From assembly GCF_947648125.1 (NCBI RefSeq), contig NZ_CANSMR010000010.1, positions 1 through 64,000 on the forward strand: a DNA stretch of 64,000 nt. Reading direction: 5' to 3'. This DNA comes from an uncultured Bradyrhizobium sp. (GTDB lineage Bacteria > Pseudomonadota > Alphaproteobacteria > Rhizobiales > Xanthobacteraceae). The notes below the pieces were generated by a model. It did no database searches and had not been told where the DNA came from. It saw only the letters and a list, made by a program, of their open reading frames with translations. The position numbers were made by a program, and so were the translations under genes. Shown here one piece after another: positions 24,623 through 33,245 of the stretch. Within the stretch, counting starts at the first letter, position 1, and every line of letters starts with the position of its first letter.

Positions 24623-26146
24623 CTAAGGTACTGGGGGAGGGACGTTGGCTGTGTACCAGATGCGGAAGGTGGCCAGCGCCGGATGGGCCAGCGACCGTTC
24701 GAGGTAGGTCCAGATCCGCGGCTGGTGCTTCAGATATTGCGGCTTGCCGTCGCGGCGGTTGAGCCGCGCAAAGGTGCCGAGCAGGCGGGTGTTCCGCTGC
24801 GCCGACATGATCGCATAGAGCTCGGCGAAGCCGGCGGGATCGAAGCTCTCGTCGGTGGCGCGCCGCGCCTTGATGTAGCGGGTCAAGAGCGACAGCTCGA
24901 GTTGCTCGGGCACGTCGATCCGCGCATCCTGCAGCAGCGACACCACGTCATAGGCCGCAGGGCCGAGCAGCGCGTCCTGGAAGTCGATGATGCCGACGCG
25001 CAGGATGCCGGTGCGCTCGGCAAGCCAGATGATGTTCGGCGAATGGAAGTCGCGGATCACCCAGGTCTGCGGCGCCGCGGCGGGCTTCTGCAGAAGGCCG
25101 CGCCACATCCCGAGGAAGTCGGTGCGGAGCTCCTCGCTCGGCTGCACGCCGCGATCGGGCAAGTACCATTCCAGCATCAGCCCGATCTCGATCAGCCAGG
25201 CGTCGATATCGAACACGGGGATGTCGTAACTCTCGTCTGATGTTACCGGCAGCGTGTCGGGCAGCGCCTCGCGATGCAACGCCGCCAGCATGTCGACGGC
25301 GGCCTCGTAACGCTCGGCAATCGGCTGCGGCGGGTCGCCCTCGATCACGCCTTCGGCGCCGAGATCCTCGGTGATCAGGAAGCCGGATTCGAGATCGATG
25401 TGGCGGATCGCGGGTGCGGAGAAGCCGTGTTTGCGCAGGCCGTTTCCGATGGCGACGAAAGGCCTGACGTCCTCGGCGAGATGCACCGCTGCACTGTAGG
25501 ACCGGCCGTTGTAGATCGCGGGGCCGTCGGGGCGGCGCGGCGAGTTCATCAGGATGACGCTGCCGTCGTCGTTGCGCAGCCGCGCATAGGAGCGCGTCGA
25601 GGCATCGCCCGGCATGCGCTCGCGCCGGGCGTTGAGGAAGCCGCCGCGCTCGAGGAACTGGCGCAGCTCGTTGAGCCGCGCAACCTTCGCCGCGGCCTTG
25701 CCGTAGCCGGTGATCTCGGCCGCGCGGGCCGCCGATCCGAGCGCCGGGCGGTGGCTGAACGCGATGTCGATTCGATCCGCGGGCATGGCGTCCGGCGCGC
25801 GTTCCGGCCACTCGATCAGCGCCACGATGTCGTCGGGCAATGGCGACAGCCCGATCTCCTCGAGTTCGCTGGCATCGTTGATGCGGTAGAGGTCGGCATG
25901 AACCAGCGGAAACGACGGCAGCTCGTAAGTCTGAGCGAGCGTGAAGGTCGGGCTCGGCACTTCCAGCGTATCGTCGGTCGCGAGGTAGCGGATCAGGGCG
26001 CGGGCGGCCGCGGTCTTGCCGGCGCCGAGGTCGCCCGACAGCGTGATGACGTCGCCGGCGCCGATCAGCAGCGCGAGGTCGGCCATCAGCTCGGCCGTCG
26101 CGGTCTCGTTCGCGAGTGCCACCGAGAATGTCGCGGTCGCCGTCAT
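24623..26146 (-). CDS. tsaE: Bifunctional TsaE / AmgK-like phosphotransferase
   Basis: Two enzymes in one 507-residue chain. Residues 1 to about 150 are TsaE, the ATPase needed for the t6A37 tRNA modification, with Walker A GDLGAGKT (38-45), VPSPTFTLAQTYEL and HADLYRINDASELEEIGL. From about 170 to the end is an aminoglycoside-phosphotransferase-type kinase with the catalytic RDFHSPN (365-371) and metal-binding GIIDFQDA. This form resembles AmgK, which phosphorylates MurNAc/GlcNAc at C1 in peptidoglycan recycling. The start overlaps the divL stop (ATGA). Confidence 0.9.
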   Translation of the reverse strand: MTATATFSVALANETATAELMADLALLIGAGDVITLSGDLGAGKTAAARALIRYLATDDTLEVPSPTFTLAQTYELPSFPLVHADLYRINDASELEEIGLSPLPDDIVALIEWPERAPDAMPADRIDIAFSHRPALGSAARAAEITGYGKAAAKVARLNELRQFLERGGFLNARRERMPGDASTRSYARLRNDDGSVILMNSPRRPDGPAIYNGRSYSAAVHLAEDVRPFVAIGNGLRKHGFSAPAIRHIDLESGFLITEDLGAEGVIEGDPPQPIAERYEAAVDMLAALHREALPDTLPVTSDESYDIPVFDIDAWLIEIGLMLEWYLPDRGVQPSEELRTDFLGMWRGLLQKPAAAPQTWVIRDFHSPNIIWLAERTGILRVGIIDFQDALLGPAAYDVVSLLQDARIDVPEQLELSLLTRYIKARRATDESFDPAGFAELYAIMSAQRNTRLLGTFARLNRRDGKPQYLKHQPRIWTYLERSLAHPALATFRIWYTANVPPPVP

Positions 26147-28653
26147 TCCGCGGCGTTGCGATGTGCGGTCTGGTCGATCGGGAAGTCGCAGGTCACGGTC
26201 GTGCCGCGGCCTACGGTCGAATCGACGCGCACCCGTCCGCCATGCAGTTCGACAAAGGAGCGGACCAGCGACAGGCCGAGCCCCGCGCCGCGATGCCGCG
26301 AGCCGTGCGAATGGCTCTCGAACCAGTTGAATACCTTGTCGCGCATCTCGGCGGGAATGCCGGGACCGGCGTCGGTCACCGAAAACACCACGCTGTGCTC
26401 GGTGCGCTGCGCGCTGATCGTGACGGTGGCGTCATGCGGCGAGAAGCCGACCGCATTGGCGAGCAGATTGTAGAGCACCTGCACCACGCGCCGCTCGTCG
26501 CCGACGAAGGCGCCGATGTTGGGCTCGATATCGACCTTGAGCGTGATGCGGTCGGTCGCGAGACGGTCCTGGATACCTTCGGCGGCGGCCTCGATCGCCT
26601 GGCCGATATTGACCGGGCCGAGCTCGAGCTTCATCGCACCGGCGTCGATGGTGGCGAGATCGAGAATGTTGTTGGTCAGCGCCAGCAGTGCGTTGGTCGA
26701 TTTGGTGACGTAGTCGAGATATTCGGCCTGCTTCGGTGTCAGCGGCCCGGTCGATGGATCGCTGAGGAAATGCGCGAAGCCGATGATGGTGGTGAGCGGC
26801 GCGCGCAGCTCGTAGGAGACGTGGTGGACGAAATCCACCTTCATCTGGTCGGCGGCTTCCAGCGCCTCGTTACGCTCGCGCAGCGCCCGCTCGACATTCT
26901 CGGTGTCGGTGATGTCCTGGAAGGCCAGCAAGGTCTTGCCGTCGGGCAGCGGGATGGTCATGCAATTCAGCACGCTGCCATCCTTGCGCTCGAGCTTGAG
27001 CGCGACCTGGGCGCGGTTCTCGATCGCGGTGATCTGCTCGCGCAGCGTCCGCCAGGTCAGCGCGTCGTCGAACAGCGGCCGGCACAGCGCTTCCACCGCC
27101 TCGATATGCGGCTCGCCCTGCAGCGCATCGGCTGGCAGCTTCCACATCTTGGCGAAAGGCGGGTTGAACAGCTCGGCGCGGCCATTGCTGCCGAACACCG
27201 CGACCGCCTCGCCGAGATTGTCGAGGGTCTCGCGCTGCACCCGCGTCAGGCGGTCGTAGCGGCGCGCGAGGTCGAGGCTCTCGGTGACGTTGTCGAACAG
27301 ATAGGTGACGCCGCCCTCGAGGTTCGGCGTGGTGACGACGCTGATGGCGCGGCCGTCGGGCAGGAACCAGGTGTAGGTCTCGGATTCGACCGCGCGATAG
27401 GCCTCGTGCAGCTTGGCCTTCCAGGCGCGGAAATCCGGCTGCTCGGGCAGCTTGCGGTTGGCGCGCAGCCGGTCGAGCACGCTGGAATCGTCGGGATTGC
27501 TGTCGAGGAAAGCCTGGTCGAGGCCCCACAGCCGCCGATAGGACTCGTTGTAGAAGGTCAGCCGCCGGTCGGCATCGAACACCGCGACGCCCGAGGATAG
27601 CTGGTCGAGGGTGCGCCGGTGCGCTTCGACCATCCGCGCGATCGCCGCGCGCAAAGCCGCGGCTTCGCTGGCGTCGATCGCGATACCGGCGCTGCCGCCG
27701 GAGAGCTTGAGCGCCTGCACGTCATAGATCCGCCGCTCGCCGCTGACCACGATCGGCAGCCGTGCGGCATAATTGGCATTGTCGTTCAGCGCGCGGGTCA
27801 GTTCGGCGCGCTGGTCGCTTTCGAGCAGTTCGAGGTTGCGCTGGAGCGCATCCGACACGCTCTTGCCCTCGGTGGCGCGGACATAGGCCGCGTTGGCGTA
27901 GCGCAGATTGCCCTCGAGGCTCTTGGCCCAGATCGGCCATGGTGCGGCGGCGGCGAAATCGCGCAGCAGCTCGGTCTCCTCCTGCAGCGTCTTGTAGCGC
28001 AGGTTGGATTCGGCGAGTTCGCGGCGCAGGCCGCCGAGCTCGCGGATCCGCACGATGGCCTGACCGCCGATCGCGCGGCCCATCGCCTCGATGGCGCGGC
28101 CGGCCGAGGTCGAGAGGTTGAGCAGGAACGCCTCGCCCTTCTCGCGCAACGCGTCGACCGCGTGGTCCATCTGCAGCGCCGGCTCGGGCGGCAGCCAGGT
28201 TCCGAAGGCGAGGATGCGTTGCGGCGCGCTTTCCTGCGACATCACCAGCGAGACGTCGCCCGAGATCTGCGGCCGGTTGTCGCCCGCGGCCCAGGAGATC
28301 AGGACCTGCGGTTCGACGAACAGCAGCGCGCGCAGCCGGTCCGATTGCGCCTGCAGGTCCGTGATCTCGGACTGCAGCTGCTCCTCGTTCCGCGTGGCGC
28401 GCAGGCGGGTGCGCATCAACAGGATCGCGGCGACGACGGAGAAGCCGACCAGCGCGAACGACGTCGCGAGGACCGCGACCTCCTGGTGATTGAAGCCGAA
28501 ATGATCCGACATCGCCTGGGTCACCAGGCTTTCAGCGGCAAAGGACGTCCGGGCCGGCAGCAATGCGGTGATGGCGAGCCCAAGCATGCCGTCGCGCGCC
28601 AGTGAGGTGCATGACAGCAGGGTTCGACGCATTGCCGCGACTACGCCCGACAT
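26143..28653 (-). CDS. divL: DivL-like PAS sensor pseudo-histidine kinase (Tyr at the H-box)
   Basis: An 836-residue membrane sensor: an N-terminal signal-like segment and a membrane helix (about residues 58-78), a linker, several PAS-like domains (one with FDADRRLTFYNESYRRLWGL, another with FGSNGRAELFNPPFAKMW), then DHp and ATPase domains. The H-box reads VHHVSYELRAPL: the phospho-acceptor histidine is Tyr614 (codon TAC at 26814-26812). The N-box NLLANAVGF, G1 DAGPGIP and G2 GAGLGLSLV are present. Tyr at this site is the hallmark of Caulobacter DivL, a regulator of CckA and DivK. The ATG at 28653 has GGGG six bases upstream. Confidence 0.8.
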   Translation of the reverse strand: MSGVVAAMRRTLLSCTSLARDGMLGLAITALLPARTSFAAESLVTQAMSDHFGFNHQEVAVLATSFALVGFSVVAAILLMRTRLRATRNEEQLQSEITDLQAQSDRLRALLFVEPQVLISWAAGDNRPQISGDVSLVMSQESAPQRILAFGTWLPPEPALQMDHAVDALREKGEAFLLNLSTSAGRAIEAMGRAIGGQAIVRIRELGGLRRELAESNLRYKTLQEETELLRDFAAAAPWPIWAKSLEGNLRYANAAYVRATEGKSVSDALQRNLELLESDQRAELTRALNDNANYAARLPIVVSGERRIYDVQALKLSGGSAGIAIDASEAAALRAAIARMVEAHRRTLDQLSSGVAVFDADRRLTFYNESYRRLWGLDQAFLDSNPDDSSVLDRLRANRKLPEQPDFRAWKAKLHEAYRAVESETYTWFLPDGRAISVVTTPNLEGGVTYLFDNVTESLDLARRYDRLTRVQRETLDNLGEAVAVFGSNGRAELFNPPFAKMWKLPADALQGEPHIEAVEALCRPLFDDALTWRTLREQITAIENRAQVALKLERKDGSVLNCMTIPLPDGKTLLAFQDITDTENVERALRERNEALEAADQMKVDFVHHVSYELRAPLTTIIGFAHFLSDPSTGPLTPKQAEYLDYVTKSTNALLALTNNILDLATIDAGAMKLELGPVNIGQAIEAAAEGIQDRLATDRITLKVDIEPNIGAFVGDERRVVQVLYNLLANAVGFSPHDATVTISAQRTEHSVVFSVTDAGPGIPAEMRDKVFNWFESHSHGSRHRGAGLGLSLVRSFVELHGGRVRVDSTVGRGTTVTCDFPIDQTAHRNAAE

Positions 28654-28681
28654 ATGTTGCCCCAGAACGCACAAACCTTAA

Positions 28682-28980: not shown

Positions 28981-29439
28981 CTAGCGTCCGGTCGAGCCGA
29001 AGCCGCCGCTGCCGCGATCGGTCGGCGACAGCACGTCGACCGGAACCAGCTCGGCCCGGGTGACCGGCGCGATCACCATTTGCGCGATGCGCTCGCCGCG
29101 CCGGATCGAGAACACCTGCTCGCCGTGATTGATCAGGAGCACATTGATCTCGCCGCGATAGTCGGCGTCGATCGTGCCGGGCGAGTTCAGCACCGTGATG
29201 CCGTATTTGGCGGCAAGGCCGGAACGCGGCCGCACCTGGGCCTCATAGCCCGGCGGCAGCGCGATCGTCAGCCCGGTCGGAACCATTTCATAGCGGCCCG
29301 GCAGCAGCAGCAGCGGCGCCGACCGCGGCACCGCGGCCAGCAGGTCGAGCCCGGCCGCGTCAGCGGTCTGGTAGATCGGCAGCAAGAGATCTGCGCCATG
29401 CGGCAATTGGTGGACTTCAACCTTGATGGTGGCGCTCAC
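28981..29439 (-). CDS. dut: dUTP diphosphatase
   Basis: dUTPase hydrolyses dUTP to dUMP, keeping uracil out of DNA. The 152-residue subunit has the five trimeric-dUTPase motifs in order: [29 protein letters not shown] (with the catalytic aspartate and tyrosine), [11 protein letters not shown] and the C-terminal arm [10 protein letters not shown] that closes over the active site. The start is GTG, overlapping the coaBC stop (GTGA), so the genes form a coupled coaBC-dut operon as in many bacteria. Confidence 0.97.
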
Positions 29440-30860
29440 GATGCGGTTCCTACGGCTCTTGCGATCCGCGACACCAGCGCGGTCGCGACGTCTTCCTTGG
29501 TCATGACGGGCCAGGAGTCGACGGTGACGTCCTTGCCCTCGCGCGAGAGCAGATGGACGGTGTTGCGGTCGCCACCCATCACGCCGGTCGCCGGCGAGAC
29601 GTCGTTGGCGACGATCCAGTCGCAGCCCTTGCGCGCGAACTTCGCCTTGGCGTTCTCGATCAGATGCTCGGTCTCGGCGGCAAAGCCGATCACCAGCGGC
29701 GGCCGCTTCTCCTTCAGCTTAGAGATCGTCGCGAGGATGTCGGGGTTCTCGACGAGCTGCAGCGGCGGCATCCCGGCCGCCGTCTTTTTCAGCTTCTGGC
29801 TGCCTTCCGTGGCGACCCGCCAGTCGGCGACCGCAGCCGCAAAGATCGCGACGTCGACGGGCAGCGCCGCCTCGACCCGGTGCAGCATGTCGCGCGCCGA
29901 CTCCACGCGCATGACGGAGATGCCCTGGGGATCGCCGAGCTCGACCGGGCCGGTCACTAGCACGACCTCGGCGCCGGCGGCGCGCGCGGCGGCGGCTATG
30001 GCAAAGCCCTGTTTGCCGGACGAGCGGTTGGCGATGTAGCGAACCGGATCGATCGCCTCATGGGTCGGGCCGGCGGTGATCAGCACGCGCTTGCCGGCCA
30101 GCGGGCGCGGCTGCGGCGGGCGCAGCATGCGGTCGGCGGCCGCGGCGATCTCGGTCGGCTCGGCCATCCGCCCGACGCCGGCCTCGCTGGCTTCGGCCAT
30201 TTCGCCGGCATTGGGGCCGACAGTGTGGACGCCGTCACGGCGGAGCTGCAGCACGTTGCGGCGGGTGGCCGGGTTGTTCCACATCAGCGGATTCATCGCC
30301 GGGGCCAGCAGGATCGGCCGGTTGGCCGCAAGCAGCGTGGCGGTGGCGAGATCGTCGGCATGGCCCTGCGCCATCTTGGCCATCAGGTCGGCGGTCGCCG
30401 GCGCCACCACGATCAGATCACAGTCCCGCGCCAGGCGGATATGGCCGGCGTCGAACTCGCTCTCGGCGTCGAACAGGTCGGTGTAGGCGCGCTCATGCGA
30501 CAGGGCGCTGGCGGCAAGCGGGGTGACGAACTGCTGGGCCGCCTTGGTCAGCACGCATCGGACCTGGATGTGCCGCTCCTTGAGCCGCCGGATCAAATCC
30601 AGCGCCTTGTAGGCCGCAATCCCGCCACCGATGATCAAGGTCACCCTGGGCTCGCCGGCCGCGCTGGTGACCCGTGGAGCAGGGGCTGCAACCTTCAGGG
30701 AGCCCGCGCCCGGCGCCTCCGTGGGCTCCGTACCGCCCTCTGCGAGGTCCCGGAGGATCACCCGGATCTCCTCCTCGACCGAGCGCCCGTTCCTGGCGGA
30801 GCGGAGCCGCAGATAGGCCTTCAGCGTGTCGTCGAGTTTGCGGATGGTCAGGCTGGCCAT
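29436..30860 (-). CDS. coaBC: CoaBC with an N-terminal FitA-like ribbon-helix-helix domain
   Basis: CoaBC joins cysteine to phosphopantothenate and decarboxylates the product in CoA synthesis. From about residue 70 the chain has the CoaC flavoprotein ([41 protein letters not shown]) and CoaB ([34 protein letters not shown]). The CoaC substrate-clamp position reads [14 protein letters not shown], without the ACGD cysteine of E. coli. Residues 1 to about 40 ([20 protein letters not shown], then [13 protein letters not shown]) match FitA/VapB-type ribbon-helix-helix antitoxins. A palindrome lies 17 bases upstream of the ATG. Confidence 0.95.
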
Positions 30861-30876
30861 GGCATACCCCCAAAAA

Positions 30877-30893
30877 TGATAGCGATGCTATCA
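30877..30893. promoter_or_regulatory. Candidate RHH operator upstream of coaBC
   Basis: TGATAGC-GAT-GCTATCA is a perfect 7-3-7 palindrome in the 52-base gap between ubiB and coaBC, followed by a second palindrome, TGCATGCA (30899-30906). Such short dyads next to the start are typical of autoregulating FitA/VapB-type repressors, and the coaBC product carries just such a DNA-binding domain. Binding is inferred. Confidence 0.6.
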
Positions 30894-30912
30894 CATAGTG
30901 CATGCATTGCAA

Positions 30913-32487
30913 TCAGTGGGCGCGAATCGCGAAAAGGATTGCAATCAGGGCGGCGGCGATGACCCAGAGGCCGACGGTCTGCACCCGCGCCTTGCGGGCC
31001 TCGGCGCGGGCCATTTCGTCGATCGAGTCGGACGACAGCATGTGGCCCTCCCGCGTCATGGTCTCCAGCTGCTCGAGTACTGTCACGGCGCGGCTGGCGA
31101 TCGACGGCAGGTTGGCGATGACGCGGCTGAGCTCGCCCACACCCGATATCGCGCCCTGAATCCGTCCAGCCGGGCCGAGATTGTGCGTGATCCATTCGCG
31201 CACCACCGGGTCCGCGATCTTCCAGATGTCGAGCTTGGGATCGAAGCCGCGCGCCACGCCCTCGACCACCACCATGGTCTTCTGCAGCAGGATCAGTTCG
31301 GGCCGCGTCTGCATGTCGAACAGGCCGGTGACCTCGAGCAGAAGCGTCAAGAGCTTCGCCATCGAGATTTCCTCGGCGGTGCGGTTGTGGATCGGCTCGC
31401 CGATGGCGCGGATCGCCTGCGCAAAGTTCTCCACTGAATGATGGCCCGGCACATAGCCGGCCTCGAAATGCACCTCGGCGACGCGGCGATAGTCGCGGGT
31501 GATGAAGCCGAGCAGGATCTCGGCGAGGAAGCGCCGCTCCTTCAGCCCAAGCCGCCCCATGATGCCGAAATCCACGGCAACAAGCCGGCCGGCCTCGTCG
31601 AGGAACAGATTGCCCGGATGCATGTCGGCATGGAAGAAGCCGTCGCGCAGCGCGTGGCGCAGGAAGCTCTGGATCACCTTGCGGCCGAGGTCCGGCAGGT
31701 CGACCTGGGCCTCCGCAAGGCGAGCGTGATCGTTCAGCGCGATGCCGTCGATCCATTCCATCGTCAGCACGCTATGAGCGGTGCGATCCCAATCCACGGC
31801 GGGCACGCGGAAGTCCGGATCGTCGCGCGTGTTCTCGGCCATCTCGGACAGCGCCGCCGCCTCGAGCCGCAGGTCCATCTCCATCGCGACCGAGCGCGAC
31901 ATCGTGTTGATGACCTCGATCAGCCGCAGCCGCCGCGCCTCGGCGGAATGCGCTTCGGCCTTGTGCGCGACAAAGAAGAAGTCGCTGAGGTCACGCCGGA
32001 AGCGCGCGGCGACATTGGGCCGGAGCACCTTGACCGCAACCTGATGCCGCACGCCGTCGCGCTCGACCTCGCCACGATGCACCTGTGCGATCGAGGCTGC
32101 GGCAACCGCGGGACCCAGTTGCACAAAGGCCTGCGACAGCGGCCGTTCCAGCGATTGCGTGAGGACAGCTTCGGCCTCCTCCTGCGCGAAGGGCGGCAGC
32201 CGGTCCTGCAGGGCTTCGAGATCGCGCGCCATCGCCACGCCCACGACGTCGGGCCGGGTGGCGAGGAACTGCCCGAGCTTGAGGTAGGCAGGCCCGAGCC
32301 GGGTCAGCGCGCGCGACAGCCGTGGGCCGGATTTGGCGGAGCGGCGCTCGATCAGCCGCGCCAGCTTCAGCGCAAGCTGCCCGGGCGGCGGCACCAGCGC
32401 CGGATCGACGACGCCGAACACGCCCTCGCGGGCAAACACGAAACCGGCGCGGGCAAGGCGCGAAATGTGGGTCAGTGCAGAGATCAC
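30913..32487 (-). CDS. ubiB: UbiB, ABC1/ADCK kinase-like protein of ubiquinone synthesis
   Basis: UbiB is an atypical membrane-bound kinase/ATPase needed for ubiquinone synthesis. The 524-residue protein has the diagnostic KxGQ motif in [28 protein letters not shown] (A-rich loop), VAVKVLRPN, the catalytic HADMHPGN and VDFGIMGRL, and a C-terminal membrane segment ([14 protein letters not shown]). It was once labelled 2-polyprenylphenol 6-hydroxylase, but it is not the hydroxylase. The start is a GTG overlapping the ubiE stop (GTGA). Confidence 0.95.
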
Positions 32488-33245
32488 AAACGCCAGCCCG
32501 AATGCAGCGCCACGATGCCGCCGGAGAGGCTCTGCCACTTCACGCGCGCAAAGCCGGCGGCGCCGATCATGTCGGCGAACGCGCTCGGCCGCGGGAATTT
32601 GCGGATCGACTCGACGAGATATTGATAGGACTCGGCGTCACCGGTGACGGCGCGGCCGAGCGGCGGGATCACCTTGAAGGAAAACAGGTCGTAGATCCGG
32701 TCGAGGCCAGGCACATCGACGGTAGAGAATTCGAGGCACAGGAAGCGGCTGCCGGGCTTGAGCACCCGATAGGCTTCGCGCAGCGCAAGCTCGATCTGCG
32801 GCACGTTGCGGATGCCGAACGCGATGGTGTAGGCGTCGAACGAACGGTCGGCGAAGCCCAATGCCTCGGCATTGCCCTCGACGAACGACACGCGGTCATC
32901 GAGGTGCTGCCTCGTGGCACGCTCGCGGCCTACGGCGAGCATGTCGGTATTGATATCGCAGACCGTGGCATGGAAGCCGGTGCCCGCGCTCTTGGCGGCC
33001 CGGAACGCGATGTCGCCGGTGCCGCCGGCGACGTCGAGCAGGGCGAACGGCCGGTCGCCCTTCGGCGGGTCGAGCGTGGTGATCATGACGTCCTTCCAGG
33101 CCCGGTGCAGGCCTACCGACATCAGATCGTTCATCAGGTCGTAGCGTGACGCCACGCTGTGAAACACGTCGTTCACCAGCGTCTGCTTCTCGCCCAGGGG
33201 CACGTCCCTGAAGCCGAAATGCGTGGTTTGATCCGGCCGATCCAT
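32484..33245 (-). CDS. ubiE: Ubiquinone/menaquinone C-methyltransferase
   Basis: UbiE C-methylates the quinone ring (demethylmenaquinol and the C5 position in ubiquinone synthesis) using SAM. The 253-residue protein has [17 protein letters not shown], the SAM loop [29 protein letters not shown] and SRFLCLEFS, all UbiE signatures. The ATG at 33245 is preferred; a GTG lies one codon upstream. It is coupled to ubiB and divergent from mutM. Confidence 0.97.

Follow-up and report, generated by a model that had tools for sequence, protein, structure and literature searches.

An antitoxin-type ribbon-helix-helix domain fused to CoaBC as a probable autogenous repressor of coaBC-dut in Bradyrhizobium and its relatives

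The window, by which we mean the entire stretch of 64,000 nucleotides of Bradyrhizobium DNA analyzed here, encodes a version of CoaBC that carries at its N-terminus a ribbon-helix-helix (RHH) domain of the FitA type, and the gene is preceded by palindromic sites that recur in front of most of its fused relatives. Because a DNA-binding domain and matching sites before its own gene occur together, CoaBC probably controls its own production. Taken as a whole, the sequence comparisons make it very likely that this is a domesticated FitA-type antitoxin domain, which lost its toxin and kept its operator, and that CoaBC would serve as an autogenous repressor of coaBC-dut.

The gene in question, coaBC (29436..30860, minus strand, as are all the features below), encodes a protein of 474 residues recognized by both PF22513 and TIGR00521. 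The latter matches residues 72-466 with 391.5 bits against a cut-off of 219.7, which identifies the protein as a CoaBC equivalog with both domains present, namely the CoaC flavoprotein domain (PF02441; residues 72-239, 30144..30647) and the CoaB domain (PF04127 DFP; residues 254-438, 29547..30101). This CoaC-CoaB core is complete, is mostly confident in the AlphaFold model, and matches the CoaBC of M. smegmatis (PDB: 6tgv) at 6.9e-72; the window protein shares the same core and differs from the mycobacterial one in having about 65 extra N-terminal residues. The RHH domain occupies residues 1-40 (30741..30860) and is followed by a linker (residues 41-66, 30663..30740) which is predicted to be disordered, with pLDDT below 50 at residues 43-67. 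On the downstream side dut (28981..29439) overlaps the coaBC stop codon by 4 bp, and ubiB (30913..32538) is the upstream neighbor. Beyond dut lies a gene for an 843-residue histidine-kinase-like protein (26143-28674), for which the 25 matches shown all fall under the model cut-offs. CoaBC is generally regarded as an essential enzyme, and most genomes searched contain a single match to it; one genome (G150) gave no CoaBC match at 1e-30 despite a stated completeness of 99%.

The first-pass annotation, made from the sequence alone, had read the N-terminal ~40 residues as an RHH domain of the FitA/VapB type, and a profile search bears this out. PF22513 (FitA-like_RHH) matches the first 47 residues at 7.4e-17 with 61.5 bits, and residues 2-39 of the whole protein at 2.4e-15 with 56.7 bits, in both cases against a cut-off of 27, which places the domain within the family. 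The FitA protein of Neisseria (PDB: 2h1o, 2bsq), matched at an E-value of about 0.007, is a sensible solved relative, and a PDB match to a designed helical repeat (5cwj) was taken as chance. Of 227 first-look candidates in the window's genome 150 were scored, and none apart from CoaBC matched PF22513. The domain is strongly conserved: an alignment of 43 fused proteins, including that of the window, has T5, R7, R20, R26, S27, E29, E31, R33 and L36 among its invariant columns, and in a set of 115 fused proteins R7, R20, A22, S27, E29, E31, R33 and L36 show zero variation, with T5 retained in 113. A crude, ungapped estimate over 55 pairs from the window's genus set gave median dN/dS values of 0.14 for the RHH domain and 0.107 for CoaC. 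The AlphaFold model contains the two helices of the domain, with blocks of residues 11-40 at pLDDT 70-80; in place of the N-terminal strand this monomer has a low-confidence helix, although a ribbon would be expected to form only upon dimerization. Both sequence and model lack the toxin-neutralizing C-terminal segment of an antitoxin, the place of which is taken by the linker and then CoaC. As the first-pass annotation had also claimed, there is no toxin gene beside the fused gene, its neighbors being dut and ubiB, and it therefore lacks the adjacent toxin that characterizes a type II antitoxin.

Two candidate operators lie in front of the gene. The proximal one (box 2, TGATAGCATCGCTATCA, 30877..30893) is the perfect 7-3-7 palindrome TGATAGCGATGCTATCA that had been noticed at the outset; its form is as described, while its distance from the ATG is 16 bases and not the 17 originally given. 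It is made up of a pair of octamers at a distance of 9 bp; the first fits the motif TGMNNKCA exactly, and the second (CGCTATCA) has one mismatch. The distal site (box 1, TGATTGCAATGCATGCA, 30899..30915), missed in the first reading, is located 22 bp from box 2; both of its octamers fit TGMNNKCA, it departs from the consensus of the family (see below) at two positions, and its first three bases are the stop codon of ubiB. The box 2 palindrome is the sole exact match to itself in the window and in the whole genome (8.57 Mb, 71 contigs), and at up to three mismatches the window has four matches against 1.3 expected. Two other near-matches in the genome, considered as members of a wider regulon (L171, L002), fall within open reading frames; the remaining 2-mismatch matches are about as frequent as those of a reversed-pattern control (11 against 14), and no regulon beyond coaBC is claimed. 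A scan for consensus sigma-70 promoters around the boxes found none.

The association of the boxes with the fusion was examined in the window's family, coded f1, in which 195 of the 198 genomes searched have a CoaBC match. The 148 loci read, of which the search itself supplied 30 and 118 were retrieved separately, comprise 115 fused and 33 unfused versions, a ratio that does not represent the true one of the family because G162, G055 and the low-scoring rows were left out. Same-strand dut matches accompany 113 of the 115 fused genes, and same-strand ubiB matches are found at 95 of the 115 fused versus 31 of the 33 unfused loci. With a box consensus (TGATNGCANTGCNATCA) taken from the first 30 of these loci, a site with at most two mismatches is present within 300 bp upstream of 107 of the 115 fused genes, and one with at most three in 114, against 8 of 2300 dinucleotide shuffles at two mismatches over the same distance; within 150 bp the corresponding figures at two mismatches are 104 of 115 and 9 of 2300. 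When the 30 loci that supplied the consensus are left out, 78 of the other 85 fused loci have the box. Eight of the 115 have sites of three to four mismatches only. By contrast, the 29 unfused loci that lack a FitA-like gene have no such box, even when the search extends to 900 bp upstream; one of these (L144) has a 3-mismatch site. The best box ends between -10 and -274 relative to the start, mostly within 65 bp of the start codon. Five fused loci (L038, L040, L065, L066 and L095) have an apparent insert between box and start codon, with the box kept and ending at -139 to -274; two of these boxes carry three mismatches, and in L038, L040 and L065 the apparent insert contains GC-rich inverted repeats.

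The basic unit of these sites is the octamer TGMNNKCA, a definition made after the sites had been seen. Its commonest variants upstream of the fused genes, counted on either strand, are TGATTGCA (179 occurrences), TGATATCA (33), TGATAGCA (24) and TGCTAGCA (14). The half-sites of the FitAB operator are TGCTATCA/TGATAGCA. Octamer density is 3.0 per 120 bp upstream of fused genes, whereas mononucleotide shuffles give 0.09 and the regions in front of the 29 unfused genes 0.10. Their commonest spacing is 9 bp, followed by 22, 18, 13, 23 and 31 bp, and in f24, a further family considered below, they are found in direct order too. Two boxes at up to three mismatches are present in 50 of the 115 fused loci, with the best two 22 or 23 bp apart in 46, and the other 65 have one box or none at this threshold. 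The phased repetition of the octamers suggests that neighboring RHH dimers line up along one face of the DNA, and we infer that each octamer would accommodate one dimer. There are also hints of a link between the domain and its site: among the 100 rows with S at residue 3 of the RHH domain, 88 have T at position 4 in each half-site of their best site, as do 3 of the 14 rows with N but not the single row with T. As 10 of the 14 N rows come from one genus (g28) and three N rows of g26 lack the pattern, residue 3 and half-site position 4 may at most co-vary in some lineages.

The fusion and its box extend beyond the window's family. In the order as a whole, where 191 of 199 genomes have a CoaBC match, alignments starting at residue 1 or 2 are confined, among the matches listed, to f1 and f24. 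A fused f24 query searched against 151 genomes of that family matched 147, and in 29 of these the alignment begins at residue 1 or 2 of the query. A scan of the class (190 genomes, 139 with CoaBC) gave an alignment from residue 1 in the window's own genome only; the alignment of one other genome, G731, started at residue 18 and ran through stop codons. Because the divergent RHH domain of one locus (L175) was missed in the f24 search, such alignment-based counts are lower bounds on the spread of the fusion. Among the f24 loci inspected, which comprise 36 rows, 30 of them the best-scoring ones of the search rather than a random draw, a box with up to two mismatches lies within 200 bp in 14 of 19 fused rows, representing 13 of 18 distinct loci, the other five exceeding two mismatches; in the 17 unfused rows (16 distinct loci) none was found within 250 bp. 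The palindrome is thus conserved where the RHH domain is present in both families (107 of 115 versus 0 of 29 without a FitA-like gene in f1, and 13 of 18 versus 0 of 16 in f24), in line with the original proposal. Named carriers among the best 80 of 560 RHH matches include Bradyrhizobium, Rhodopseudomonas, Afipia, Tardiphaga and metagenome bins; 77 of these 80 loci, which were chosen by RHH similarity and may overlap the coded genomes, have a box at up to two mismatches within 300 bp, as do 63 of the 66 that pass a strict CoaC motif test. In one of the 80, an Afipia metagenome bin (L259), the frame ends after 53 residues, just past the RHH domain, reflecting either an assembly error or a real split. 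On a CoaBC tree of 190 rows the box accompanies 120 of 133 fused and 0 of 57 unfused versions. Across independent fused/unfused pairs on well-supported branches, box presence agrees with fusion in 4.6 of 5 and opposes it in none, for which a sign test gives a median p of 0.0625, five pairs being too few to reach 0.05.

The likely provenance of the fused domain is suggested by unfused relatives. In f1, two unfused loci (L117 and L126) have separate FitA and PIN genes between ubiB and coaBC with an exact box in front; Pfam identifies both genes in L117 and FitA in L126, where PIN was recognized by similarity to another PIN protein. Two further unfused loci (L119 and L142) have a FitA gene followed by a much shortened apparent PIN remnant, read by eye, with an exact box in L142 and a 4-mismatch site only in L119. 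The RHH domain of L117 is the nearest to that of the window among 17 separate RHH domains compared (75% over 40 residues). In f24, FitA-like and PIN genes directly precede coaBC in 12 of the 16 distinct unfused loci read, six of the 12 having a site with up to two mismatches in the 1500 bp scanned. One locus with tandem FitA-like antitoxin genes, two in number, followed by one PIN gene directly upstream of coaBC (L176:590-1460) shares its coded genus with L173 and L174, which are fused. A similar FitA-PIN-coaBC arrangement is seen in a third family (L195), its PIN gene being recognized by eye and by similarity. The occurrence of FitA-PIN pairs, or of an antitoxin with an apparent toxin remnant, directly before coaBC in relatives supports the earlier suggestion of a domesticated antitoxin. 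Of 34 rows of FitA-like matches in the order, two were fused and four had no locus; among the 28 separate loci that are left, a site with up to two mismatches lies within 110 bp upstream in four, indicating that this operator type is common to some of them and not to all. On the CoaBC tree the fused state must change at least 10 times, and starred branches force three of these changes, so that the fusion was probably gained or lost more than once.

More generally, the junction between ubiB and coaBC looks like a landing site for toxin-antitoxin-like modules. Other genes of this kind are seen in the gap in the unfused relatives L124, L133 and L146, where the matches are to a HicB-like family (PF15919, 26.2 bits, cut-off 27), DUF4258 (59.8 bits, cut-off 25) and an addiction-antidote-like protein (17.5 bits, cut-off 27), while in L132, L143 and L145 the gap holds open frames that by eye resemble GNAT acetyltransferases. 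NtrPR of Sinorhizobium was considered as a module beside coaBC but found no support: no such module is annotated at the megaplasmid-borne coaBC of S. meliloti, and the main text of the NtrPR paper, when searched, contained none of coaBC, dfp or pantothenate. In S. meliloti Ak57 (L326, CP090106.1) the unfused coaBC lies on a megaplasmid record with a porin-family gene next upstream and no ubiB annotated nearby; in two further Rhizobiaceae records the position of coaBC bears no annotation.

These observations are best explained by a scenario in which the FitA antitoxin gene of a FitAB/VapBC-like module between ubiB and coaBC would have lost its toxin and become fused to coaBC, while keeping its operator. 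The RHH tails of assembled CoaBC subunits would then pair as dimers and bind the TGMNNKCA array, with its 9-bp steps and, in the window, its two pairs 22 bp apart, over the promoter or leader of coaBC-dut. As CoaBC accumulated, the coaBC-dut promoter would close and transcription would fall; we infer such binding and repression of coaBC by the RHH domain from the comparisons above. Any metabolite switch acting on the fused protein, including the response to CoA intermediates or flavin state suggested in the first-pass annotation, is speculative. A CoA-linked one is conceivable by analogy, since CoaBC of mycobacteria forms a dodecamer, with CoA and its thioesters acting as inhibitors of the enzyme in M. 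tuberculosis (PMC7794376). A bolder version, which we regard as possible although rather doubtful, is that CoaBC is a dodecameric, metabolite-switched repressor in which as many as six RHH dimers grip the array of octamers, with bound CoA thioesters, or FMN and pathway intermediates, setting the affinity for DNA and thus establishing a direct loop from CoA to transcription; the toxin-antitoxin module beside coaBC would have been captured more than once, and in the module-bearing relatives its operator would already govern coaBC.

The main alternatives differ in what the domain and the boxes would do. As a rule the RHH domains of antitoxins act as repressors at their own promoter, which counts against the idea that the domain binds the boxes and activates coaBC. 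The position of the boxes is informative here, in that their ends vary from -10 to -274, as activation might allow, but for most of the best ones the end is no more than 65 bp from the start codon, a position better suited to a repressor. There is a precedent for activation, or for activation and repression according to occupancy, in AmrZ, an RHH protein that is both activator and repressor (PMC3325190), but on balance this remains unlikely for CoaBC. That the domain is a relic serving the folding or oligomerization of CoaBC, with the boxes used by another regulator, is quite improbable: an RHH dimer could indeed stabilize an assembly like the mycobacterial dodecamer (PMC7794376), yet the box is missing from all 29 loci without a FitA-like gene, it also precedes some separate fitA genes, and the residues of the ribbon are kept (T5 in 113 and R7 in 115 of 115 proteins).

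The occupation of the same site in relatives by separate FitA and PIN genes would accommodate a fused domain that neutralizes a FitB/VapC-type toxin in trans, as an anti-addiction protein, but in the fusion a linker of variable length, predicted to be disordered, stands where separate FitA proteins have their C-terminal tail, and this possibility appears very slight indeed. It is scarcely credible that the palindrome acts as RNA, either as a hairpin or as a 3' element of ubiB. A stem of 7 bp with a loop of 3 nt can be drawn, and box 1 overlaps the ubiB stop; nevertheless, octamers recur with a spacing of 9 bp and boxes with one of 22/23 bp, some octamers are in direct order, the position varies, and the box is missing from 29 unfused loci most of which have ubiB upstream.

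Autogenous repression by the RHH domain has a close functional parallel in trifunctional PutA, where an N-terminal RHH domain on a flavoenzyme makes the protein the autogenous repressor of its own gene, and which switches to membrane binding with the level of proline and the redox state of its flavin (PMC5293562). The two share an RHH domain on a flavoenzyme and differ in that PutA belongs to proline catabolism whereas CoaBC is biosynthetic; the abstract and introduction of PMC5293562 do not mention a toxin-antitoxin origin for PutA. CoaBC itself is no PutA, the PRODH and P5CDH domains being absent from its Pfam/NCBIfam matches with E-values up to 1, and yet it shows both features of a PutA-like arrangement, namely an RHH domain joined to the enzyme and, upstream of the gene that encodes it, conserved sites. 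The antitoxins of FitAB and VapBC belong to the same RHH subfamily (PF22513), and the boxes before some separate fitA genes resemble those of coaBC, but the fused protein differs from FitA and VapB in having no adjoining toxin partner and no toxin-binding tail, and in being attached to CoaBC. The best reading of these comparisons is that RHH-CoaBC would work like PutA, and that it has ceased to be an antitoxin as understood for toxin-antitoxin systems.

No earlier report of coaBC with an RHH domain, an antitoxin or autorepression was found in the open-access literature, subscription papers lying largely outside the scope of that search, and transcriptional self-control of CoaBC would be new. 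With the module, the antitoxin with an apparent toxin remnant, and the fusion all found at one genomic address, the route from antitoxin to housekeeping regulator becomes testable step by step. In Bradyrhizobium, Rhodopseudomonas and other members of their group, a supposedly essential enzyme appears to be its own repressor.
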